From Thermoplasmata archaeon (lineage in GTDB: Archaea; Thermoplasmatota; Thermoplasmata; Sysuiplasmatales; Sysuiplasmataceae), in contig JAJZXY010000002.1 in assembly GCA_021806165.1 (NCBI GenBank), forward strand, positions 1 through 64,000: a stretch of DNA of 64,000 nucleotides, written 5' to 3'. The first letter of the stretch is position 1. Every line of letters begins with the position of its first letter. Below, in pieces: positions 38,983 through 52,069 of the stretch. A program made the position numbers and the translations under genes. The notes beneath the pieces were generated by a model. That model was not told the DNA's origin. It was given only the letters and a program-made list of their open reading frames with translations, and did no database searches.

Positions 38983-40080
38983 ATGTGCTTCAGCCGGGCA
39001 GGGGGCATGCAGGTAACAGAAGGAGGCGCCCGACGGGCGGGCAAGGCGGGCAGGGATTTCTTCGACAGGCACATATCACCCTTCTCCGGGAAGTTGAGGG
39101 AGGATGTCCTGCTTGGCCCGAAATACGGCGCTGACTTCGGTGTCGTGTCTCTCGGCGGCGGAAGGGTGATGGCAGTCAGCACCGATCCGATATGGGTAGA
39201 CCGCATATACGGCCTGAAGCGCGCTGCATGGTTTGCCTTTCACACAATCACAGGTGATGTGGCTGTGAGCGGCCTGAGGCCCACGCACATTGCGGTGGAC
39301 TGGAATCTGCCGCATTCCACGAAGCCATCCGAGGCTGCTCAGATGCTTTCAGTTTTTCATGCAGAGGCGGAGAAGCTTGGGATGTCCATCATTGCCGGCC
39401 ACACCGGTCACTACGAAGGCGCCTCCTTCCCTGCTGTCGGTGGTGCGACAGCATTCGCCGTAGGAAGGGGAGAGGATGTCAGGCTGCCGGGTTCGGCCAG
39501 GCCGGGTGATGAGGTGTTGATGACCAAAGGGGCGGCCATTGAAACGGCGGTTGCAGTCTGCTACCGTCACCCCCGCGCCGCACGTACCTTAATTGGGCGG
39601 AGTGCAGCTTCGGCCGTCAGGTCGATGTTCGGCTCCCTGTCGGTGGTGGATGACGCACTTGTCGCTTCATCCCTGCGCTCTGTCAGCTCCATGCACGACG
39701 TTAGTGAGAGGGGCCTCGCGGCTGCCCTGAATGAAATGGCGGAGCTTTGCGGACACGATATTGTCATGGATGGAACATCACCAGTCGTACCGGTGCCCGT
39801 GAAAAGGCTCTGCTCCGCCCTTTCCCTTGACCCGCTTTCATGCAGCAGCAGCGGAAGTCTTCTGGTCACGGTCAGAAGTGGCTCATCGGACGCCCTTATC
39901 CGCACACTCTCCTCGAAGGGTATTGAAGCCTGGAGGATAGGCAGAATCGGGAAGGGCGACGGTGGAGTTTTCATAACAGGCGCCGGTAAACGGAAGCGGC
40001 TTGATGAGCCGCGTTCCGACGGTCTTGTGAAGGGACTGGAGGCAGCCGCGAAGCTTGAAATGGAAATGGACGCGGCTTAG
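38983..40080 (+). CDS. AIR synthase-related (PurM/HypE-fold) protein
   Basis: A ~357-365-residue protein of the PurM superfamily. The acidic ATP-site strand ADFGVVSLGGGRVMAVSTDP, the HTITGDVAVSGLRPTHI segment and the GATAFAVGRGEDV strand fit the HypE/AIRS-related group. HypE's terminal Cys is absent, and no other hydrogenase maturation genes lie nearby, so it is not HypE. The start could be ATG 38983 or 39007. The substrate is unknown; it probably binds ATP and transfers a phosphate. Confidence 0.75.
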   Translation: MCFSRAGGMQVTEGGARRAGKAGRDFFDRHISPFSGKLREDVLLGPKYGADFGVVSLGGGRVMAVSTDPIWVDRIYGLKRAAWFAFHTITGDVAVSGLRPTHIAVDWNLPHSTKPSEAAQMLSVFHAEAEKLGMSIIAGHTGHYEGASFPAVGGATAFAVGRGEDVRLPGSARPGDEVLMTKGAAIETAVAVCYRHPRAARTLIGRSAASAVRSMFGSLSVVDDALVASSLRSVSSMHDVSERGLAAALNEMAELCGHDIVMDGTSPVVPVPVKRLCSALSLDPLSCSSSGSLLVTVRSGSSDALIRTLSSKGIEAWRIGRIGKGDGGVFITGAGKRKRLDEPRSDGLVKGLEAAAKLEMEMDAA

Positions 40081-40170
40081 GTCAGGGAGACCGCTTCCCT
40101 GCTTTCAGGGGATTGAATGCATCCGGGCAAAGACTTATAACGAGCACCTGTTACACACTTGCTCCAAGGG

Positions 40171-41445
40171 ATGCTTCCGATGCGCAACGGCTCAGTGATC
40201 GCACTACGTTCATTCATCATTTCCATCGGTGTCACTGCAGCCTCCACCTTCGTGGGTGTTTACGGGGTAATTCTGGGCGCTAACGCAGCTGACATGGGAT
40301 GGCTGCAGTCCCTCGCCAATTCACTTTCAAACGGCGGACAGCTTCTGTGGGGGAGAATAAGCGACAAGCTAGGAAGGAGGGTTCCTTTCATACTTCTTGC
40401 CAGTGCGGTTCTGGCTGTGCTCTGGTTTGCAATGTCCACCGTGCAGACACCGCTCGAGCTGATTGCCGTCTACGCCCTGATATCGCTAATGGGGGCAATG
40501 ATAACGGTCAACTGGTTCTCCCTGATAGCCGATGTAACCGACTCGAGCAACAGGGGACATTTTCTTGCGGCAATCAACAATGTAGGCTCGATTGGAACCC
40601 TGGTTTCAGTGGGAGCGATGGTCTTCCTGCTCCACGGAAGCAGCAGGGGGGAGCTTGAAATACCATTCATAGCGGCATCCGCATCATATGTCGTCAGCGC
40701 AGTCCTTGTCTCAAGACTACATGAAAAGGAGCACCGGACAAAGATTACAAGCGGACTGCGCAAGACACTTTCGGAGGTAAGGCAGCACAGGATCTTCTAC
40801 AGATATTTCGTTGCCATGAACGTCCAGGGGTATTTCTGGTCCATGGCCTGGCCCCTCTTCCCGATTACAATTGTTTCAATAATGCACTTCGACCTCTCTT
40901 CGGTGGCAGTGCTTACGGTGGCAACGCTGATGGCGACGATTGCCGGTCAGTATGCATTCGGGAAGGTGGTGGACAGGGTCGACAGGGCGCCACTGATATT
41001 CTACAACAGGATGCTGCTTGCAGCCATCCCGCTCATGTACGCCGTCTTCAACACATTCTCCCTCTTTCTTGTCATGGAGGTTTACAGCGGCGTGCTTGGT
41101 GCCATACAGAGCGTTGTGATGAACTCATACCTGATGGACATAGTGCCGCCTGAAAGCAGGGCCGAGTACATATCAATAATCAACGGGTTCAACGGGGCGG
41201 TCTATTTTCTGGGAGCCCTGTCCGGCGGCTACCTGCTCGAACTCCTTCTCAGCTCATTCAGCCTGAGGACCGGTCTGCTGATTGCATACATGGTGATCAT
41301 GGGTGGACGGTTTGTCTCTTCATTCATGTTCCGGGGGCTAGAGGAGCCGGAGAGGCGTGAAAGGGGACACCTGTCGCTGATGAACATACTCTTCCGCACG
41401 AAATACCCCGGCCTTCCTTCCGGTTCAACAGTCAAGCCAAGGTAA
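40171..41445 (+). CDS. MFS transporter
   Basis: A ~425-residue protein with 12 hydrophobic segments. Motif A is GRISDKLGRRVPFIL between helices 2 and 3. CTTATAAC at 40132-40140 puts transcription start near 40162, so ATG 40171 or ATG 40180 is better than the TTG at 40159. Helix 4-5 carries NNVGSIGTLVSVGAM. It is close in style to sugar or drug MFS proteins of Thermoplasmata; the substrate is not recognisable. Confidence 0.8.
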   Translation: MLPMRNGSVIALRSFIISIGVTAASTFVGVYGVILGANAADMGWLQSLANSLSNGGQLLWGRISDKLGRRVPFILLASAVLAVLWFAMSTVQTPLELIAVYALISLMGAMITVNWFSLIADVTDSSNRGHFLAAINNVGSIGTLVSVGAMVFLLHGSSRGELEIPFIAASASYVVSAVLVSRLHEKEHRTKITSGLRKTLSEVRQHRIFYRYFVAMNVQGYFWSMAWPLFPITIVSIMHFDLSSVAVLTVATLMATIAGQYAFGKVVDRVDRAPLIFYNRMLLAAIPLMYAVFNTFSLFLVMEVYSGVLGAIQSVVMNSYLMDIVPPESRAEYISIINGFNGAVYFLGALSGGYLLELLLSSFSLRTGLLIAYMVIMGGRFVSSFMFRGLEEPERRERGHLSLMNILFRTKYPGLPSGSTVKPR

Positions 41446-41525
41446 TCCTCCCAGACTCCAGGCACCTGTGAACAGGGGTGCCGGCACGACCTGGCTGCGA
41501 TGACGGCGAAATAGCCGGCGTGGAT

Positions 41526-43214
41526 ATGAGAAAACGATATCTACGCTGCACATCCTTTACACCCAGGGTGTTCTTCTTGGAAAATATACGGGGAGTAAGT
41601 CTTACAATCGGGAACCTTCTGTCCGATGCTGTATCAAGGCATCCCGGGAGTGAGGTGGTATACAGGGATGAAAGGTACAGCTTTGCTGAATTCGGCAAAC
41701 GTGTAAGGCGCATTGCCTCGGCCCTTATCGAGAAGGTGGGCGTGAAGGAGGGCGATGTGGTTGCAGTACTGGACTGGGACAGCATGCGCTATATGGAGGC
41801 ATATTACGCGGTGCCGATGACAGGGGCAGTCCTGCACACGGTGAACATCCGCTATCCACCCGAGATCATATACTACACCATGGCACATGCGGAGGACAAG
41901 TATGTGATCGTCCGTGACACCTTCCTGCCCATGCTTGAAAAGTATGCCGAAATGTTCGAATTTGTCAAGGGATGGATCATATGCAGCGACGACGCAAAGG
42001 AGGTCAGCACAAAGCTGAACCCCCACTATTTGTACAGTGAGCTTCTGGAGGGCCATGAAGCCCAGCTGCCCGAGACAGGCGAGGACAGGATGGCAACAGT
42101 CTTCTATACATCGGGGACGACAGGCATGCCAAAGGGCGTTTCATTCACTCACAGGCAGATTGTGCTGCATGCCATGGCTATAGACATAGCGGGGAGAATG
42201 GAACCTCTGCGCAACTGGGCCGGGGACACCGTCATGCCAATGGTGCCGATGTTCCATGTCCATTCATGGGGGCTTCCCTACAGCACCCTCTTTTCAGGTA
42301 TGAAATACATCCTTCCGGGGAGGTATGAATACCCTGCGCTGCTAGAGACCATTGACAGGGAGAAGGTGACGTTCACCGCATCCGTGCCATCCATACTCTA
42401 TATGCTGCTCTCTGCACCGAACCTGAAGGAGCATGCCTCCTCCCTGAAGGGCCTGAAGATGCTTATAGGCGGAGCTTCCCTGCCGAGGGGCCTGGCAACA
42501 AAGGCGAGGTCGCTGGGCATGACGCTGGTCGGCGCCTACGGCCTTTCGGAAACCTGCCCTGCGCTGACCATCGCAGGCTACACCGAATCCGTCATGGCGC
42601 TCCCGGAGGAGAGCAGGCAGGAGTTCCTGCTCAAGGCGGGGGTGCCGTTTCCGTTCGTCATGCTGCGCGTAGTCGATTCAAACCACAACGACGTCCCGGA
42701 AGACGGCAAGACCGCGGGGGAGGTAATTGTGAGAACACCATGGTGCACAAGCGGCTACTACAAGGACCCGGAGAAGACGGACGAACTCTGGGAAGGGGGA
42801 TGGCTCCACACAGGGGATCTTGCTGTCAGGGATGAACATGGCTATATCCAGATAGTCGACAGGGAGAAGGACGCAGTCAAGTCAGGGGGCGAGTTCATTC
42901 CAAGCCTTCTGCTTGAGAGCGCCATCAGCGAATGCAGGGGTGTGGGCGAGGTGGCTGTGGTCGGCCTGCCGGACGAAAAGTGGGGTGAAAGGCCGTTCGC
43001 TGTCATGACGCGGTCAGATGCGGTGACAGAAGCTCAGATCACTGAACACCTGAGGCAGTACGTCGCAACGGGCCGCATTCAGGACTGGTGGATACCTGAC
43101 GGATACAGCTTCGTCGAAAGCATACCCAAGACAAGCACTGGGAAGGCGGACAAGAAGGCGATAAGGAAGACGCTCCTTGCAGGCTCAGGCGATGCGGTCC
43201 GAGCATCAGATTGA
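41526..43214 (+). CDS. Fatty-acyl-CoA synthetase (AMP-forming)
   Basis: A ~562-residue adenylate-forming enzyme activating a fatty or branched acid to acyl-CoA. Core motifs are YTSGTTGMPKGV (P-loop), AYGLSETCP (A5), GWLHTGDLA (A7), DREKDAVKSGGEFIPS (A8) and catalytic Lys in PKTSTGKADKKA (A10). Start ATG 41526 gives the usual N-terminus; the open frame runs further up to 41478. It converges on the beta-oxidation operon, overlapping its last gene by nine bases, and would supply that pathway. Confidence 0.9.
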   Translation: MRKRYLRCTSFTPRVFFLENIRGVSLTIGNLLSDAVSRHPGSEVVYRDERYSFAEFGKRVRRIASALIEKVGVKEGDVVAVLDWDSMRYMEAYYAVPMTGAVLHTVNIRYPPEIIYYTMAHAEDKYVIVRDTFLPMLEKYAEMFEFVKGWIICSDDAKEVSTKLNPHYLYSELLEGHEAQLPETGEDRMATVFYTSGTTGMPKGVSFTHRQIVLHAMAIDIAGRMEPLRNWAGDTVMPMVPMFHVHSWGLPYSTLFSGMKYILPGRYEYPALLETIDREKVTFTASVPSILYMLLSAPNLKEHASSLKGLKMLIGGASLPRGLATKARSLGMTLVGAYGLSETCPALTIAGYTESVMALPEESRQEFLLKAGVPFPFVMLRVVDSNHNDVPEDGKTAGEVIVRTPWCTSGYYKDPEKTDELWEGGWLHTGDLAVRDEHGYIQIVDREKDAVKSGGEFIPSLLLESAISECRGVGEVAVVGLPDEKWGERPFAVMTRSDAVTEAQITEHLRQYVATGRIQDWWIPDGYSFVESIPKTSTGKADKKAIRKTLLAGSGDAVRASD

Positions 43215-44276
43215 GGCGCTTCCTTCTCCAAGCATGAGTCCTGAGAGCAGTTTCAGGTCATCATTCCTGTTTCCGCCAAGCGCCTCAAGCGCCATCGCAT
43301 CCCTGTAGTATTTCTCGACGCCGTAGTCGCTGAAGTAGCCGTTCCCTCCGTGCACCTGCATTGACAGCCTTGATGCCCTAACCGCAGCATCCGTCAGCAG
43401 CAGCTTTGCCGCCAGCCCCTCACGCGCATCGCCCGCTGCGCTCCCGTAGAGATATGCCTTCATTGATTCGAGTTCGGCCTGCATCATTGAAAGAGCATGC
43501 GCAACAGGCTGGTATTTCCTGAGCTCTGACCCGAACGTCTTTCTTTCCGCCGCGTACCGCACTGCCCTTGAAAGCGCCCCCTCCGCTATGCCAAGGGCCG
43601 TTGCCGCAATTGCCCTTGATGCCGAATTGAGGGTCGAGGCTATGCTCCATCCTCCCTTCCTGCCACCAATACGGGTGTAATGCGCGGGGGGTGTTTCAAA
43701 CTCCATGCTGCAGAATCCCACCCCCCTCATGCCCAGACGCGGGTATGAATCCTTCCTGCTGCCGCCGCCGCGGACAAGAAGCAGTCCTCCGTCCTGCGAT
43801 TCCGAGATGAAGAAAGCGGCTGACGGGTGGACCACGTAACGGCAGCTTCCGACAAGGTGGCCGCCTGCAAGTTTCAATCCGCCGGCCCGTGCATTTGACA
43901 GGAGCTCACCGAACAGCAGCGTTCCGCTTCCCGTGCCGTCCGCCACGCTTCTCACAGCAGCCTCCGCCTCTTCGCTTCCCCTGAAACCGAGGAGGGGTGA
44001 GATCACAAGCGAGTTCTGCAGCATTATGTAGAATGCCACCGAGGGGGAGGAGGAGGCAAGCGTTTCGAGCAGCGCCATGTATGGTGCAGGCCCGAGCGAT
44101 GCACCCCCCAGATCCTCCGGAGCAACGGCGCCGAGGTACCCCCTTTCAGCGGCCTTTGCGAGCAGCTCTCCCGGTATTCCCGACTCCTCGATAAGTGCGG
44201 CTGCAGGCGCAACATCCTTTTCGGCGAACTCGCGCGCGAAATTGAGCACGAGCTCGGTTTCCTCGTCCATCCTCAT
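43206..44276 (-). CDS. Divergent acyl-CoA dehydrogenase-like protein lacking the catalytic Glu motif
   Basis: A 356-residue member of the acyl-CoA dehydrogenase fold (helical N domain, beta middle domain, C-terminal four-helix bundle with RKTFGSELRKYQPVAHALS and MQVHGGNGYFSDYGVEKYYRDA). At the end, where active enzymes read ...IYEGTSEIQ with catalytic Glu, it has ALEALGGNRNDDLKLL. The middle-domain FAD motif 'TEPxAGSD' is also missing (GELLSNARAGGLKLA instead). It overlaps the intact dehydrogenase by four bases (ATGA), suggesting the two form one heteromeric enzyme. Confidence 0.8.
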   Translation of the reverse strand: MRMDEETELVLNFAREFAEKDVAPAAALIEESGIPGELLAKAAERGYLGAVAPEDLGGASLGPAPYMALLETLASSSPSVAFYIMLQNSLVISPLLGFRGSEEAEAAVRSVADGTGSGTLLFGELLSNARAGGLKLAGGHLVGSCRYVVHPSAAFFISESQDGGLLLVRGGGSRKDSYPRLGMRGVGFCSMEFETPPAHYTRIGGRKGGWSIASTLNSASRAIAATALGIAEGALSRAVRYAAERKTFGSELRKYQPVAHALSMMQAELESMKAYLYGSAAGDAREGLAAKLLLTDAAVRASRLSMQVHGGNGYFSDYGVEKYYRDAMALEALGGNRNDDLKLLSGLMLGEGSASI

Positions 44277-45403
44277 TTTCCCTCACCCTTCTCCTTGAGC
44301 ATCCTGGCGACAATCAGCTTCTCCACTTCGCTGGTCCCCTCCCATATCTCCATGATCTTCGCATCCCTGTAGAAGCGCTCCATGTCAGTGGTTACCCCGT
44401 CAGCCCCCATGAATTCAAGAATCCTTGTAACAGCATATGTGGCTGTTTCGGCCGCATAGTACTTTGCCATGCTTGTTGCCACGGGGTCGGGGGTGAATTT
44501 GAACAGATAGGAGGCTGCCCTGTAGGTCAGCAGCCTAGCTGCATCTATCCTGCTCGCCACCTCCGCCACAAGGAACTGGGCCGCCTCCCCGTCTGCAGCA
44601 GCGCTCCCTGATGCCCTGAGCGCTGCGAGGTATGAAGTGAGCCTGTCGAGAGCACCCTGTGCTATGCCCAGAGCCTGTGCCGCGACATATATGCGTGATA
44701 TGTTGAAGAATGTCATGACGTAGTAGAATGCCTTCCCCTCCTCACCGATAACATTCTCAGCAGGTATGCGCACATTGCTGAATGTGAGCTCGGCCGTGTT
44801 TGTCGCCCTCATCCCCAGCTTTCCCTTCAGCTGCGTGGCCCTGAACCCCTCCATTGCCGACTCAACGACCACCATCGTCAGCCCCCTGTGCCTCTTTTCG
44901 GGAGGGGGTGGCGACGATCGCGCCAGGAGGTAGAAATGGTCCGCAATTCCACCATTTGTGATGAATATCTTCTGCCCGTTCAGGAGGTAGCTGCCGTCCT
45001 CGTTCCTGGTCAGGGCAGCGCTTATGCCCGCTACATCGCTGCCTGCGCCCGAATCTGTTACGGCGAATCCGCTCATCTTCTCACCGTGCATGACGGGCTC
45101 CAGATACTTCTTCTTCTGGAAGTCGCTGCCGAAGAGCATCAGTATCTCGCTCCCGAAAGCAGGGACAATGGCCGACAGGCCCAGACCCGGGTCGACCCTG
45201 CAGAACTCCTCCATGGCCACGAGCATTCCCCACGGGTTTCCCATGTCGAGGAAGCCTTCCCTGAATGCCTTCCTCCTGATTTCATCCGGGTACTTCTCCC
45301 CCTCGTCGTGCTCCGCCGCTGCGGCGGCGGTGAATTCCCTTGCCGCGAATTCCGCGGCCTTTTTCTTCATGGCCACCACATCCTCAGGAAGATCAAAATC
45401 CAT
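44273..45403 (-). CDS. Acyl-CoA dehydrogenase
   Basis: A 376-residue FAD enzyme that makes trans-2-enoyl-CoA. FAD site AVTDSGAGSDVAGISAAL, substrate loop FITNGGIADHFYLLAR, and the C-terminal IMEIWEGTSEVEKLIVARML with catalytic Glu are intact. It is encoded between thiolase (no gap) and the divergent dehydrogenase (four-base overlap). Electrons would pass to an electron-transfer flavoprotein not encoded here. Confidence 0.92.
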   Translation of the reverse strand: MDFDLPEDVVAMKKKAAEFAAREFTAAAAAEHDEGEKYPDEIRRKAFREGFLDMGNPWGMLVAMEEFCRVDPGLGLSAIVPAFGSEILMLFGSDFQKKKYLEPVMHGEKMSGFAVTDSGAGSDVAGISAALTRNEDGSYLLNGQKIFITNGGIADHFYLLARSSPPPPEKRHRGLTMVVVESAMEGFRATQLKGKLGMRATNTAELTFSNVRIPAENVIGEEGKAFYYVMTFFNISRIYVAAQALGIAQGALDRLTSYLAALRASGSAAADGEAAQFLVAEVASRIDAARLLTYRAASYLFKFTPDPVATSMAKYYAAETATYAVTRILEFMGADGVTTDMERFYRDAKIMEIWEGTSEVEKLIVARMLKEKGEGK

Positions 45404-46600
45404 TCAGCTCACCCTCTCCAGCAGTATTGAAAAACCCTGCCCGCCGCCGACGCAGAGCGTGGCAACGCCCCTCTCCTTTCCCTTCTCGTTCAGCTCCCTG
45501 GCGAGCGTTCCTGTAATCCTGGCACCGCTTGCACCCAGAGGGTGCCCTATTGCAACGCTGCCACCATGAATATTGACCCTGTCCTCCTCTATGCCGAGCT
45601 CGCGCATGGCGTAGAGACCGACGATGGAAAATGCCTCGTTGATCTCCCATAGATCGACATCCCCGACGCCAATCCCCGCCCTTGCAAGCGCCTTCTCGGA
45701 GGCTGGCACCGGTCCCTTGCCCATCAGGCTCGGCTCGACGCCCGCCCACCCCATGCTTGCAATTCTTGCCAGTGGCCTGAGTCCGCTCTCCCGGAGCTTC
45801 CTGCCCGACATGAGCATCACAACCGACGCTCCTGCATTCAGAGGTGCTGAATTGCCCGCTGTTATCAGCCCATCCTGCTTGAAGACAGGAGGAAGCGCCC
45901 GGAGCTGTTCAATTGTGGAATCCCCTCTTATGCTCTGGTCCCTGTCTATCACAGCGCTCCCGCCTTCACCCTCAACCTCCACAGGCATGATCTCCCCGTT
46001 GAACCAGCCCTCCTCAAGCGAACGGGAGGCAAGCTCATGGCTGCGGAGTGCGAACTTGTCCATCTCCTCCCTTGTGATTCCGCTCACGCCTGCCAGATTC
46101 TCTGCCGTCAGCCCCATCGAATAACCGGCGCTCATCTGGTATTTCATGTATTCTGGCCTCACAAGCAGCTTCATGTTTGGTGCAATGTGGCCGTTGTTGC
46201 TCATGGGCACATGCGTCATGTGTTCGAATCCGCCTGCCAGAACTATGTCGGAGTATCCGTCCCGTATCTCCAGCGCGCCCATCATTATTGCATTCATTGA
46301 CGATGAACAGGCCCTGTCGATGGCTGCGGCCGGAACCTCGACAGGCAGGCCTGCAAGCAGCACCGGGTGCCTTCCCCCGTAGAGCCAGTTTTCATCAACC
46401 TGAAGTGCGCATCCTGTAATAACATCGCCAATCTCAGCCGGCCTGATGCCGCTTCTCCCGACAACCTTCCTTATGAGAAGTGCAAGCAAATCATCCATTC
46501 GCAGTGAGTTGAACACGTCCTTCTCCGGCCGGGATGGCCTGGAGCGTGAAAAGGCGCTCCTCAGATAATCGACCAGGTAGACATCTTCCACAACGCTCAC
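45404..46600 (-). CDS. Acetyl-CoA acetyltransferase (thiolase)
   Basis: A 398-residue thiolase doing the last step of beta-oxidation. The nucleophilic Cys is in AIDRACSSSMNAIM, the His in SVAIGHPLGASGARI, and the second Cys in TLCVGGGQGFS, all normal. It overlaps the HAD-ECH fusion by four bases and abuts the dehydrogenase, so translation is coupled. Unlike many archaeal thiolases, it has no adjacent DUF35/OB-fold partner gene. Confidence 0.92.
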   Translation of the reverse strand: MSVVEDVYLVDYLRSAFSRSRPSRPEKDVFNSLRMDDLLALLIRKVVGRSGIRPAEIGDVITGCALQVDENWLYGGRHPVLLAGLPVEVPAAAIDRACSSSMNAIMMGALEIRDGYSDIVLAGGFEHMTHVPMSNNGHIAPNMKLLVRPEYMKYQMSAGYSMGLTAENLAGVSGITREEMDKFALRSHELASRSLEEGWFNGEIMPVEVEGEGGSAVIDRDQSIRGDSTIEQLRALPPVFKQDGLITAGNSAPLNAGASVVMLMSGRKLRESGLRPLARIASMGWAGVEPSLMGKGPVPASEKALARAGIGVGDVDLWEINEAFSIVGLYAMRELGIEEDRVNIHGGSVAIGHPLGASGARITGTLARELNEKGKERGVATLCVGGGQGFSILLERVS

Positions 46601-48564
46601 TTCCCCTTGAATTCCGCCTTCCTCTTCTGCAGGAACGCGCCTATGCCCTCCCTGAGATCCTCTGTGCCGTAGAGCACGCCCGCAGCGAACGCCTCCATCT
46701 CAAGCCCGATGTCCGAGCTACCCTCTGCAGCCTTGCGCACAAGCCTCTTGGCAAGCGTAGACGCCACGGGGGCGGCGTTTGCCGCCAGCTCCCTGGCAAA
46801 CCCCATTGCCTCCCTGTCCACATCCTTGACAATCCTGTATGTGATGCCATAATCCAGCGCAGCCGCCGCATCAATCCTTTCGGCCGTCAGTATGAGGGCG
46901 AGGGCCCTCGACCCCCCTATGGCCCTGGTGAGCAGCTGCGTACCTCCCCATGCAGGTATGAGCCCCCTGGTAACTTCCGGGAATGCGAGGACCGCATTTT
47001 CCGATGAGAGGCGTATGTCGCATGATAGCGCAAGCTCAAGCGCGCCGCCGAGCACATACCCCTTCAGCGCGGCGATGGTGATCTTGGGCATTTCTGACAG
47101 CTTCCTGAGCGTCCTCTCCCCCCTCCTGGCATACTCTATGAACTCCGGCCCGCCGGGTATGAAGGTGGTCATCTCCGCTCCGGACGAAAAGTTCTCCCCG
47201 GCACCTGTTATAACAACGACCCTGATGTCCTTACTGTCCCAGTAATGCTCAATGACTGCATCCAGTTCGGAAAGAAGCCCCGGGCTTATCATGTTGTACT
47301 TCGGCCTGTTCAGAGTGATGTGCAGTATGCTTCCATCCTCCTCGACAAGCAGCGCTGCGCCACCCTCCTTCACCTTCGCTGCAGGAGCCTCCTTCGCCTC
47401 CTTTTCACCCGTGACTCTCCCATCGGCAGCCTCCCTCAGCCTTCCCTCCGCGATGGATCTGGCCGGAGCGAATATTGGCATGGAGTACTCGGCGGCTAGC
47501 CGTTCCAGCGCCTCCTTTACCTCCCTGTTCGTCAGGCTCTTGGCCACGGAGATCGGCCCGAAGGGCCTGTTCATTCCAAGCCTGACAGCCGTGTCTATCT
47601 CGTCAGGTGAGGCAACGCCCTCCTCTATCAGCTTCACAGCCTCGTTTATTTCCACAGCGAATATGTCAAGCAGCCTTACCCTGTCGGTTGCCCTGGAACT
47701 GTCAATCCTGGGCCTGCCTGCTCTCCAGTCATAAAAGCCGCTGCCGGTCTTCTTCCCGAGCCTCTTCTCATCGACCATCCTCCCGAATACCTTAACTCTG
47801 CCATAGTCGGGCGATAGCTCCCTGGCGAAGTAGTCCAGCGAATCCTTGACAATGTCTATGCCGACGAAATCCAGGAGTTCATATGGTCCCATGGGAAGCC
47901 CCTGCTGCCGGCCGAATGCGTCTATCTCCTCAGGCGAGGCAACGCCGCTGTCCTGCAGGAGGCCGAAAAGAAGCAGATCGGCCGCATTTATCCTGTTGAC
48001 AATGAACCCGGGCCTGTCCCTCCTCACCACAACTGGCGTCTTCCCCAGCTCCAGCAGAGCGCTGCTTGCAGCCTCCACCGCCTCATCACCTGTTTCAGCG
48101 CCCCTTACTATCTCAACTAGCTTCATCACAACCGCCGGGTTGAAGAAGTGCATTCCAAGCACCCTGGACGGATTGCTGACGCCTTTCGCCAGATCTCCTA
48201 TCCTGATGTTGGATGTGTTGCTGCCTATGATTGCATTCTTCGGTGCAGATGCGGCCGCCTTCTCAAGCACTTCCCTCTTCAGTTTCGGTATCTCCGGGAC
48301 TGCCTCAATCACCATGTCAGCGCTGTGCACAGACTCGGCTATGTCGGTGAAGGGGTGTATCCTGTCAAGGACGCTCTTCATCTCCCCCTCATGCATGCTC
48401 CCCTTCCTGACAAGCCTGTCAAGACTCTCCCTGATTCTCGACAGTCCCTTCTCCACCGCCCCGGCATCGACGTCCATGAGGTTTACATTGTAACCCCCGA
48501 TGGCGAATACCTCTGCAATTCCATGCCCCATCTCCCCTGCGCCAATGACTGTAACATTTTTCAT
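46597..48564 (-). CDS. 3-hydroxyacyl-CoA dehydrogenase/enoyl-CoA hydratase fusion
   Basis: A 655-residue bifunctional enzyme. An N-terminal NAD domain (VTVIGAGEMGHGIAEVFAIG) with HFFNPAVVMKLVEIVRG occupies residues 1-285; a second dehydrogenase C-terminal domain follows to ~385; then an enoyl-CoA hydratase domain (~405-655) with both catalytic glutamates, in GYVLGGALELALSCDI and FPEVTRGLIPAWGG. The dehydrogenase-hydratase order is reversed relative to bacterial FadB and is the common archaeal form. It overlaps thiolase by four bases. Confidence 0.92.
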   Translation of the reverse strand: MKNVTVIGAGEMGHGIAEVFAIGGYNVNLMDVDAGAVEKGLSRIRESLDRLVRKGSMHEGEMKSVLDRIHPFTDIAESVHSADMVIEAVPEIPKLKREVLEKAAASAPKNAIIGSNTSNIRIGDLAKGVSNPSRVLGMHFFNPAVVMKLVEIVRGAETGDEAVEAASSALLELGKTPVVVRRDRPGFIVNRINAADLLLFGLLQDSGVASPEEIDAFGRQQGLPMGPYELLDFVGIDIVKDSLDYFARELSPDYGRVKVFGRMVDEKRLGKKTGSGFYDWRAGRPRIDSSRATDRVRLLDIFAVEINEAVKLIEEGVASPDEIDTAVRLGMNRPFGPISVAKSLTNREVKEALERLAAEYSMPIFAPARSIAEGRLREAADGRVTGEKEAKEAPAAKVKEGGAALLVEEDGSILHITLNRPKYNMISPGLLSELDAVIEHYWDSKDIRVVVITGAGENFSSGAEMTTFIPGGPEFIEYARRGERTLRKLSEMPKITIAALKGYVLGGALELALSCDIRLSSENAVLAFPEVTRGLIPAWGGTQLLTRAIGGSRALALILTAERIDAAAALDYGITYRIVKDVDREAMGFARELAANAAPVASTLAKRLVRKAAEGSSDIGLEMEAFAAGVLYGTEDLREGIGAFLQKRKAEFKGK

Positions 48565-48584: not shown

Positions 48585-48920
48585 CTACTGTCTCGCCTTT
48601 TCAAGCGCCGACACAAGCTTCTGTGCCGCCATTATGTTTCCAGAAAGCTTCAGCTTTCCTGTAATGAAAGCCTGTACGCCATTCATCTTTCCTGCCAGAA
48701 TGCCGTCCATTACATCCCCGCTTGCAGTGAGAGTCACGGTCGGCGATTCGGAGCTCCCCCTTTCAAGCCGCATGGAGCCGTCCTCCCTGATCTGCAGGGC
48801 AAACTTCCCCCCGTCCACGTCGAACTGGACGACCCTGCTGTCGCCCTTCAGCTGTTCCCTCAGCTTTTCAGACTGATTGGCCCTCTTCACAATGTCATCC
48901 AGTACTTCGTAGGTAGGCAT
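48585..48920 (-). CDS. SCP2 sterol carrier-like protein
   Basis: A 111-residue SCP2-fold protein with a hydrophobic lipid or acyl pocket. Seen: FALQIREDGSMRLERG, TVTLTASGDVMDGILAGKMN and the C-terminal AFITGKLKLSGNIMAAQKL, the usual SCP2 ending. It lies 20 bases upstream of the HAD-ECH fusion gene in the operon. SCP2 domains bind fatty acyl-CoA or sterols and may feed substrate to the oxidation enzymes; sterols themselves are not expected in this archaeon. Confidence 0.85.
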   Translation of the reverse strand: MPTYEVLDDIVKRANQSEKLREQLKGDSRVVQFDVDGGKFALQIREDGSMRLERGSSESPTVTLTASGDVMDGILAGKMNGVQAFITGKLKLSGNIMAAQKLVSALEKARQ

Positions 48921-48941: not shown

Positions 48942-50450
48942 CTATAAAGGCTTGCCGTGTTCCCTGTCGGGGAGAACCAGCCCGTATGCGACATCATCAA
49001 GAGAACCGGCGGAGTCACCCACAAAGATGTGGCGTGTCTGGGTGAACTCCATGAGCCCCTCAATTCCAAGCTCCCTTCCAATGCCGCTTTCCTTGAACCC
49101 GCCCCTCGGTGCTGCGGAAGAGAGCATGTGGTAGTCATTCACCCACACGGTTCCAGCCTGGACCCTGCCGGCAACTCGCATCGCTCTTCCCATGTCCGAT
49201 GTCCACACACCGGCGGCCAGACCGTAACTTGTGTCATTTGCAATGCCGACCGCCTCCTCCTCCCCGCTGAATTCGGTGCATGTCAGGACTGGCCCGAATA
49301 TCTCTTCCCTGGCGACTGACATGTCGCGAGTCACCCCTGTCAGTATGGTGGGGGGATAGTAGAATCCGCCTTCAGGCACGGAGCCTGCAATATCCTTCCT
49401 GTAGTATATCTCGGCGCCCTTGGATGCGCCTTCGTCGACCATACCGCCGATCTTGTGAAGCTGGTCCCGGGTGGTGATCGCGCTTATGTCTGTGTCCATT
49501 TCCATGGGGTTGCCCGCCTTCATCCTTTCCGCGGCCATGACGAGTCTTTCAATGAATGCTTCACCGATGCTTTCTTCCACCAGCAGCCTGCTCCCGGACT
49601 CGCACAGCTGCCCTGAATTGAGGAATATGCCGAACATCACCCCCCTTACAGCCCTGTCAAGGTTGGCGTCGGCAAACACTATGTTGGGAGACTTCCCGCC
49701 CAACTCCATTGTAACCTTCTTGATGGTCCCGGACGCCTGCTCCTGGACCTTCTTTCCAGTGGAGGTTGAGCCTGTGAAGCTGAGCATGTTAACCCTCCTG
49801 TCCCCCGATAGCGCCCTTCCTGCCGTGTCGCCCGTACCAGTCACCACGTTGAGCACTCCCGGGGGCAGCCCCGCACGCTCAGCCTCCCTCGCAAGCTCAA
49901 GCGCCGTCAGCGGAGTATGCTGCGACGGCTTGAGTACGACAGTGTTGCCTGCCAGAAGCGCCGGAACAGTTTTCCAGACCGCCATGAGAAATGGAACATT
50001 CCATGGCGCAATCGCCGCCACAACGCCCATGGGAGCATGCTGCACTATGCCCCTGGTCCCCGGATACTCAGGATGATTCCTCCTCCCGGACATCCTGACA
50101 TTCAGGCCGGCATAGTAGCGTATGCATTCCACCGCGAGCGGAATGTCCATCAGAGCGCTCTGCCTGATGACCTTACCGGTGCACATGGACTCCAGAAGCG
50201 AGAACTCCTCCGACCTCTCCTCAATCATCGATGCGAGCCTTGAGAGCACCCTCCTTCTCTGGCTGAGCGATGTACTGGACCAGCCGGGGAATGCACCTTC
50301 AGCCGCCTCCACCGCCTCCGCGCACTTGTCTGCGGAAGCATGAACAACAGCCGCGACAGACGAACCGTCCGCGGGGCAGGTCAGTTCCTTCCTCTCCCCT
50401 TCCAGGTCCCAGGCACCGCCTACATAGTTTCCATAAATCTTCTGTTCCAA
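48942..50450 (-). CDS. Aldehyde dehydrogenase
   Basis: A 502-residue NAD(P) aldehyde dehydrogenase. Catalytic Cys is in NSGQLCESGSRLL, catalytic Glu in VTMELGGKSPN, the Rossmann loop is FTGSTSTGKKV, and the C-terminal oligomer segment is APRGGFKESGIGRELG. It resembles betaine/4-aminobutyraldehyde-type ALDHs, but the substrate is not set by sequence. Its place between two SCP2-type genes suggests oxidation of a fatty or isoprenoid aldehyde to the acid that the synthetase activates. Confidence 0.9.
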   Translation of the reverse strand: MEQKIYGNYVGGAWDLEGERKELTCPADGSSVAAVVHASADKCAEAVEAAEGAFPGWSSTSLSQRRRVLSRLASMIEERSEEFSLLESMCTGKVIRQSALMDIPLAVECIRYYAGLNVRMSGRRNHPEYPGTRGIVQHAPMGVVAAIAPWNVPFLMAVWKTVPALLAGNTVVLKPSQHTPLTALELAREAERAGLPPGVLNVVTGTGDTAGRALSGDRRVNMLSFTGSTSTGKKVQEQASGTIKKVTMELGGKSPNIVFADANLDRAVRGVMFGIFLNSGQLCESGSRLLVEESIGEAFIERLVMAAERMKAGNPMEMDTDISAITTRDQLHKIGGMVDEGASKGAEIYYRKDIAGSVPEGGFYYPPTILTGVTRDMSVAREEIFGPVLTCTEFSGEEEAVGIANDTSYGLAAGVWTSDMGRAMRVAGRVQAGTVWVNDYHMLSSAAPRGGFKESGIGRELGIEGLMEFTQTRHIFVGDSAGSLDDVAYGLVLPDREHGKPL

Positions 50451-50472: not shown

Positions 50473-50877
50473 TCAGAACTCCGTATCCACCAGTTTCGCC
50501 GTGTTCACCATCTCCTTCGCCGCCCTGCTGTAACGCAGGACCTTCATGACAGGTCCCTTGAGCCTGAACTTCCCTGTAAGAAGGCCCTGTATGGGTTCTA
50601 TCTCGCCTCCAATCAGTCTTCTCCAGTTTCCGAACGGGCCGCTGTAGACGAACTCGGAGTCGGGAACATCATCCCCCTCGACGAACACCTCATATCCCCA
50701 GCAGGAGCCGTGATGGAGGTCCAGATAGATGTACCAGCTGGCGGCCAGCGTCTGGTCCTTCTCCACGCAGAGTGTGATGTCTCCCTCCCATCCCATCCCT
50801 GCATCCCTGTATCCTGTATTGGCGTTGAGCTGCCTTACGTATTCGTCAGCCCATTCCCTGCTTGGGAATCTAGGCAT
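50473..50877 (-). CDS. SCP2-like lipid-binding protein
   Basis: A 134-residue protein with an SCP2-type layout: WADEYVRQLNAN helix, then WYIYLDLHHGSCWGYEV strand and EPIQGLLTGKFRLKGPVMKV, the family ending before a final helix. It is more distant from SCP2 than the 48.6-kb copy. It is 22 bases upstream of the aldehyde dehydrogenase, so the operon carries two lipid carriers. Confidence 0.75.
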   Translation of the reverse strand: MPRFPSREWADEYVRQLNANTGYRDAGMGWEGDITLCVEKDQTLAASWYIYLDLHHGSCWGYEVFVEGDDVPDSEFVYSGPFGNWRRLIGGEIEPIQGLLTGKFRLKGPVMKVLRYSRAAKEMVNTAKLVDTEF

Positions 50878-50971: not shown

Positions 50972-52069
50972 TCAATTCATGCCCTCAATCGTTCCCCTGA
51001 TGGCGGCTATGGCTGCTGCAGCATCGTTCTGGTTCACCCATCCCATGTGCCCTATCCTTATGTACTTCCCCTTGAGCACCGGATGGACGCCTGAGGCGAA
51101 CTCCACGCCACGCCCGATGCATCCGCTGAGGAATGCGTTCATGTCCAGCCCGTTCAGCATCACGCCCGTTACCGTGTTGCTCCTGAGTCCGGGGGAGGCC
51201 ACGATCCCGAGGCCCATGCCCTCCACGGAATCAGCGATCCTGGAGGCGACTGCCCTGTGCCTCTCTATCCTGTTCTCCAGTCCCTCCTCGCCCGACATCC
51301 TGAATGCCTCCCTTAGGCTCAGGACGGTTGATATCGGGGGAGTTGCAAAGTATCCACCCCTGCCCTCAAGCATCCCCTCCATGACAGGCTGCCAGTTGTG
51401 AAGGTCAAGGAAATAGCCCGAAACACCCTCTCCCTTCACGCCTGCGAGCAAATTCCTCCTGACTGCAAGCAGCCCCAGCCCAGGCGGTGCCCCGATTGCC
51501 TTCTGGCTGGCTGTCAGCACCACGTCGGCGCCCCAGCGGACGGCCTCCACGTTCTCCCCTCCCACGCTGGCAACCCCGTCAACGACTGTCAGCTCCGATA
51601 TTTGCCTGGCTGCTTCGATGAGTTCGGCCACGGGTGCACGGACCCCCGTGCTTGTTTCCACATGCGTCATCACCGTCATCCTGTACTTTGCCCCGCCGGA
51701 CTTCGATGCAATCTCTTCCGGCGTCACGGTGAGTCCAGGCGTGGCCTTCAGGCTGTCAACCTCAACAGGATAGCGCTCGAATATGCGCATCCACCTGTCC
51801 CCGAAAAGGCCGTTGCTCACGACAAGCACCCGATCCCCCCTCCTGAGGAAGGTTGTTACACTCTCCATTGCAGCCGTGCCGCTCCCCGGGATGATAAAAG
51901 GAAGATAGCTGTCATCGCCACCCATCACCTCCAGGACGCCGTGGAGGCTCTCCTTCATTGCCAGTACGAACTCATCTGTGGCGAAGCCCACGTTCTCGGC
52001 CACGCCTGCCAGCATGACCCGGTAGTTTCCCACGGAAGGACCCATGTGCATGAGAATTCTTCGCACCAT
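50972..52069 (-). CDS. Class V aminotransferase (alanine-glyoxylate/serine-pyruvate type)
   Basis: A 365-residue PLP enzyme. The PLP lysine is in VLTASQKAIGAPPGLGLLA, the cofactor Asp in LTVVDGVASVGGENV, and the N-terminal FIIPGSGTAAMESVTTF loop binds phosphate. Archaeal homologues interconvert alanine or serine with glyoxylate or pyruvate. It is the farthest upstream gene on this strand, separated from the SCP2-like gene by about 95 bases, so it may be in a different transcript. Confidence 0.85.
   Translation of the reverse strand: MVRRILMHMGPSVGNYRVMLAGVAENVGFATDEFVLAMKESLHGVLEVMGGDDSYLPFIIPGSGTAAMESVTTFLRRGDRVLVVSNGLFGDRWMRIFERYPVEVDSLKATPGLTVTPEEIASKSGGAKYRMTVMTHVETSTGVRAPVAELIEAARQISELTVVDGVASVGGENVEAVRWGADVVLTASQKAIGAPPGLGLLAVRRNLLAGVKGEGVSGYFLDLHNWQPVMEGMLEGRGGYFATPPISTVLSLREAFRMSGEEGLENRIERHRAVASRIADSVEGMGLGIVASPGLRSNTVTGVMLNGLDMNAFLSGCIGRGVEFASGVHPVLKGKYIRIGHMGWVNQNDAAAAIAAIRGTIEGMN

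Follow-up and report, generated by a model that had tools for sequence, protein, structure and literature searches.

In the 64,000-nucleotide window of DNA analysed here (contig JAJZXY010000002.1, positions 1 to 64,000), which comes from a 1.88-Mb metagenome-assembled genome (MAG) of the archaeal class Thermoplasmata, two adjacent genes very probably encode the subunits of an acyl-CoA dehydrogenase (ACAD) that would be obligately heteromeric, probably alpha2-beta2, with one composite FAD and active site per pair. The genes, alpha (44273–45403, 376 aa) and beta (43206–44276, 356 aa), lie on the minus strand with alpha transcribed first, and by their open reading frame coordinates they share the ATGA start/stop overlap (44273–44276) noted in the initial annotation of the window. 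That annotation had also proposed a heteromeric ACAD with one active site per pair, a proposal that is now strongly supported at the sequence level: an obligate alpha-beta dehydrogenase is the most likely reading because the FAD-binding and catalytic motifs are reciprocally split between the two proteins, because the genes are adjacent at every pair locus inspected and co-occur across genomes, and because control ACADs of the same class hold these motifs in one chain.

In ordinary ACADs the FAD spans the dimer interface, and each chain of the homodimer does both the cis and the trans jobs of binding it. In human short-chain acyl-CoA dehydrogenase (SCAD), S155, T187, G160, S161 and E396 are among the cis FAD binders and E392 is the catalytic base, while R297, Q365 and G369 are supplied by the adjacent monomer; the mutation Q365H blocks tetramer formation (PMC13027082). 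We mapped these nine FAD and catalytic positions onto the archaeal chains through the alignment with 4L1F (SCAD number minus 29), the mapping being our own. Alpha retains the cis and catalytic sites (T116, G121, S122, T149, E355, E359): the cis flavin motif TDSGAGSD (residues 116–123, 45035–45058, minus strand; SCAD S155, G160, S161) stands within TDSGAGSDVAG, and WEGTSE (residues 354–359, 44327–44344, minus strand), with the catalytic Glu355 and the FAD-contact Glu359 (SCAD E392, E396), within IWEGTSEVEKL. Its trans sites are degenerate (L262, E330, A334), and EFMGADGV (residues 330–337, 44393–44416, minus strand) stands where QxxGGxGY would be expected. Beta presents the reciprocal picture, retaining the trans FAD-binding motifs RKTFG (residues 245–249, 43530–43544, minus strand; R245, SCAD R297) and QVHGGNGY (residues 307–314, 43335–43358, minus strand; Q307 and G311, SCAD Q365 and G369), with Gly334 (43275–43277, minus strand) in place of the catalytic Glu and N128, V149 and N338 at cis sites. 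Pfam finds all three ACAD domains (N, M and C) in alpha, the predicted catalytic subunit, but only N and C in beta, the predicted non-catalytic subunit, where the FAD-binding middle domain Acyl-CoA_dh_M goes undetected. The catalytic Glu and AGSD motif claimed for the first gene, and the lack of a catalytic Glu and FAD motif claimed for the second, are thus borne out; what had been overlooked is that the residues for contact with the partner's FAD are gone from alpha and retained in beta. Both proteins belong to the ACAD superfamily by these domains and by the match of both predicted structures to ACAD folds; a homomeric (SCAD/MCAD-type) enzyme holds all groups in one chain, whereas here they are divided between alpha and beta wherever the pair was inspected.

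Run against 400 Thermoplasmata genomes, a beta profile separated beta-like proteins (at least 231 bits, plus one frame-disrupted copy) from ordinary ACADs (at most 217 bits) with a clear gap. Beta was found in 84 of the 400 genomes, in five families, and alpha likewise in 84; both occur together in 83, the one genome with alpha only (G003) having a contig that ends inside alpha and the one with beta only (G290) a contig that begins inside it. At all 68 beta loci inspected for motifs and adjacency, again in five families, alpha lies directly 5' of beta on the same strand, with a gap of −73 to +5, most commonly −4 (17/68); a thiolase gene lies 5' of alpha at 65 of the 68, and a fatty-acid-CoA ligase is close to the pair at many. 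The division of residues is nearly absolute. In SCAD numbering, alpha carries E392 at 68/68 loci, G160 and S161 at 67/67, T187 as Thr or Ser at 67/67 and E396 as Glu or Asp at 68/68, but R297 at only 4/68, none of them with the Phe of RxxF (0/68), Q365 at 0/68 (Glu in 63) and G369 at 0/68. In beta, R297, the Phe of RxxF and G369 are each present at 68/68 and Q365 as Gln or Asn at 68/68, whereas E392 is present at 0/68, S161 as Ser or Thr at 8/68 and T187 as Ser at 1/68. A search of helix G for a substitute catalytic Glu, in both chains over the 68 loci, yielded no conserved column. Among 27 ordinary Thermoplasmata ACADs gathered without a motif filter, by comparison, 26 hold all groups in one chain. 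The sole control that does not is a host-genome ACAD (G000:C33:69118-70185; L036, L052), which has an odd C terminus (VWHGALSYT, AEGALNIMR) and lies on the same contig as genes for electron transfer flavoprotein (ETF), about 5 kb from them. A contig scan with the beta alignment added, among the matches listed, three further archaeal pairs, all in named public genomes (Euryarchaeota archaeon CPBay_Spr30G08_79, L153; Thermoplasmata MAGs, L154 and L159); its matches, which included ordinary bacterial ACADs, had been picked by their trans-motif pattern and were for that reason left out as a motif control. Both genes are under purifying selection, omega for beta being approximately 0.05–0.10 in close pairs, which rules out beta as a pseudogene. 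Since every locus inspected, across five families, shows both the pair and the division of its motifs, and both genes are under such selection, the arrangement is not a matter of chance. One genome (G046) holds a second full alpha-beta pair at C3 (L041, 9301–11464) in addition to another at C42, and thus the module can duplicate as a unit.

With the cis and trans jobs divided over two chains, one FAD and one active site are expected per alpha-beta pair, and, as each gene has lost the half-site that its partner kept, the proteins are expected to work only together. We infer assembly, FAD stoichiometry, substrate and electron acceptor along the following lines. Alpha would bind the isoalloxazine and ribityl part of FAD together with the acyl-CoA, Glu355 acting as the catalytic base, while beta would be catalytically dead, keeping the fold and the ADP end of the cofactor in place by means of Arg245 and Gln307/Gly311, which would cross the dimer interface to the ADP part of alpha's FAD; neither chain would be active alone. 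The complex would carry out the first step of fatty acyl-CoA beta-oxidation, to be followed by the hydratase/dehydrogenase fusion and then the thiolase encoded in the same operon, with electrons probably passing to ETF, the genes for which are present in the host genome.

To our knowledge, ACADs split over two genes have so far come mainly from steroid-degrading bacteria. In ChsE4-ChsE5 (FadE26-FadE27, PDB 4X28) and ChsE1-ChsE2 (FadE28-FadE29) of Mycobacterium tuberculosis, alpha provides for the isoalloxazine, the catalytic Glu and the substrate while beta contacts the ADP-ribose (PMC11153573), and the ChsE-type heterotetramer is essential for activity, the enzyme being active only as alpha2-beta2 (PMC8399759). 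The archaeal pair resembles these in its adjacent genes, in the presence of the catalytic Glu in alpha only, and in the division of FAD binding between a flavin part in alpha and an ADP part in beta, a division known in the archaeal case from sequence alone. It differs from ChsE4-ChsE5 in its archaeal host, in its fatty-acid operon in place of a steroid cluster, in the family models that score best and in the position of the Glu. The same split is seen in Tcur3481-Tcur3483 (PDB 6WY8/6WY9), the bile-acid ACAD of Thermomonospora curvata, and in IpdE1-IpdE2, both heterotetramers; Tcur3481 aligns with beta residues 29–355 (E 1.7e-15), and beta matches the IpdE2 model at 2.3e-8 only. Unlike the archaeal pair, as we read it, those enzymes use steroid substrates, and their alpha Glu position also differs: FadE26 and Tcur3483 have GGGTNE (the FadE26 reading) or AGGVNE/GGGVNE at the canonical site and the Glu in helix G (NHER), whereas all 68 archaeal alphas have the Glu at the canonical WEGT site and Ser or Thr at the helix-G site, so that none carries the helix-G Glu of the steroid FadE family. 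The parallel with the steroid FadE pairs of actinobacteria drawn in the initial annotation holds for the division of labour but probably does not extend to descent or substrate; Glu position and family scores differ.

By sequence and by fold, both chains instead match best the homotetrameric butyryl-CoA and short-chain ACADs (4L1F, human SCAD, MmgC 5LNX), which share the fold and the canonical Glu but hold in one chain the cis and trans halves that the archaea distribute over two genes. In our tree, which has four clean clades, archaeal alpha is sister to one-chain ACADs from Syntrophaceae/Deltaproteobacteria (SH-aLRT 99). Like alpha, these proteins (L207:6182-7324, L212:6208-7305) have Glu where the trans site would have Gln, plausibly a stage on the way to the split; unlike alpha they retain RTAFG and GGYGY, and thus look like the unsplit ancestor type. 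At each of the two loci (L207, 4995–7324, and L212) a pair of seemingly complete ACADs stands side by side, one member being the closest outside relative of archaeal alpha; in the L212 copy the frame seems to be broken close to the C terminus. We see about an even chance that the obligate heteromeric architecture has a second origin, in Thermoplasmata-type archaea (including cultured genera such as Thermoplasma and Ferroplasma), from a butyryl-CoA-type one-chain ACAD through loss of the cis FAD half in one chain and of the trans half in the other, and in the service of general fatty-acid beta-oxidation, not of steroids. Our literature search, with most subscription papers outside its coverage, found no earlier report of a heteromeric ACAD from archaea or Thermoplasma.

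Acquisition from bacteria, by descent from the steroid FadE/pimC-pimD heteromeric ACADs, would account for the identical division of labour, and the phylogeny leaves room for it: the archaeal and actinobacterial betas group together, though weakly (72), and approximately unbiased (AU) tests rejected neither a joint alpha clade (p 0.43) nor alpha and beta as sisters (0.50). Because the AU tests are undecided between a shared and a separate origin, we do not claim convergence as shown. We nevertheless consider such descent unlikely, given that alpha's sister group consists of ordinary one-chain enzymes and that its Glu lies elsewhere than in FadE26 and Tcur3483. Moreover, the actinobacterial reference pairs, which were taken from plasmid matches, score best with pimC, IpdE2 and pimD, and the archaeal chains with acryloyl-CoA reductase (AcrC) and cyclohexanecarbonyl-CoA dehydrogenase, and no steroid ACAD chain appears among the top 50 fold matches of the predicted alpha and beta structures.

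The genomic setting bears on what the enzyme might oxidize. Reading 5' to 3' on the minus strand, the operon comprises a class-V aminotransferase (50972–52069, PF00266), whose place in the gene order is the same in one congener (L146), a weak SCP2-like protein (50473–50877), an aldehyde dehydrogenase (48942–50450, PF00171), an SCP2 protein (48585–48920), a 3-hydroxyacyl-CoA dehydrogenase/enoyl-CoA hydratase fusion (46597–48564, identified by Pfam), a thiolase (acetyl-CoA C-acetyltransferase; 45404–46600, NF005033 over cut-off) directly 5' of alpha, then alpha and beta. A long-chain-fatty-acid-CoA ligase (41478–43214, plus strand, NF004837 over cut-off) is convergent with beta, their 3' ends sharing nine bases. 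Adjoining the ligase side are two plus-strand genes, a selenophosphate-synthase/AIR-synthase-like gene (38983–40080, labelled by eye) and, next to the ligase, an MFS transporter gene (40159–41445); in congeners (L044, L045) both hold the same position relative to the module.

Two SCP2-type genes had been reported in this operon, and we recover both, one clear (PF02036, E 1.8e-16), the other marginal (E 1.2e-4, with 22.8 bits where the cut-off is 21.3). From these genes only, a specialized ACAD for bulky isoprenoid or steroid-like acyl-CoA had been proposed, the SCP2 proteins serving as substrate carriers. Known heteromeric ACADs do take the side chains and rings of steroids as substrates (PMC8399759), the operon's aldehyde dehydrogenase could yield an isoprenoid acid, methylmalonyl-CoA mutase is encoded in the host genome, and the N-terminal domain of alpha has uniformly lost 10 residues (67/67 full-length alphas), a deletion that could open the pocket. 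We find this quite unlikely all the same, as SCP2 does not point specifically to a bulky substrate and the proposal fares poorly against the rest of the module: its conserved partners amount to a full beta-oxidation set of the ordinary kind, present throughout Thermoplasmataceae-like genomes, the models matched by ligase and thiolase are those for fatty acids in general, and alpha is nearest to butyryl-CoA-type ACADs. An AMACR-like protein was sought among the CoA_transf_3 proteins of the host genome, and the sole such protein is nearer to succinate-HMG/formyl CoA-transferases than to AMACR, which is weak evidence in the same direction. Judged by gene content and sequence matches, an ordinary fatty acyl-CoA thus appears to be a more likely substrate than a bulky one. 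In Thermoplasmatales genomes from acid mine drainage, fatty-acid breakdown has been judged possible, with proteomic support, the role of each ACAD being unclear (PMC3750248).

Several observations weigh against the obligate pair and lend something to the view that alpha forms an ordinary homotetramer, with beta as either a regulator in its own right or a paralogue in decay. Beta evolves approximately 2–5 times faster (more relaxed) than alpha in most close pairs. An extra alpha-like gene in G201:C23 (L144, 5382–6515; 422 bits) has lost the trans residues and has no beta next to it; perhaps it shares the beta found at C36, perhaps it is a gene of another kind. Beta lies in two frames (159 + 169 aa) beside an intact alpha in one complete Thermoplasma-like genome (G074:C1, L145, 6750–7759), which may reflect a sequencing error or a real loss, the two being indistinguishable here. 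In such places alpha might act with a distant beta or alone. The AlphaFold models of alpha and beta are of monomers, with moderate confidence (pLDDT 65 and 67, from 4-sequence alignments), and show only that both chains retain an ACAD fold, nearest to short-/medium-chain enzymes. Even so, a homotetrameric alpha seems very improbable to us, in that alpha lacks the trans FAD residues that a homodimer needs, and beta, under purifying selection, keeps exactly those residues throughout. ACAD-fold enzymes without the canonical Glu exist, e.g. HsaA and DszC, and beta could by analogy with such monooxygenases be an independent flavoenzyme with another base, but this is hardly credible for a protein that lacks the cis flavin-binding residues, an Acyl-CoA_dh_M match and a conserved helix-G Glu, and that stands apart from alpha only at contig ends.

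An obligate alpha-beta enzyme in these archaea would have consequences beyond the window. Alpha2-beta2 ACADs are regarded as a hallmark of steroid catabolism, and a conserved archaeal family that divides the labour in the same way, but belongs to another ACAD branch and to an operon for plain beta-oxidation, would, if true, break that rule. It would likewise explain why some archaeal 'acyl-CoA dehydrogenases' might seem inactive when singly expressed, alpha and beta being the two genes that need co-expression in tests of archaeal fatty-acid oxidation, and it would offer a clean natural example of the passage from a homodimer to an obligate heterodimer.

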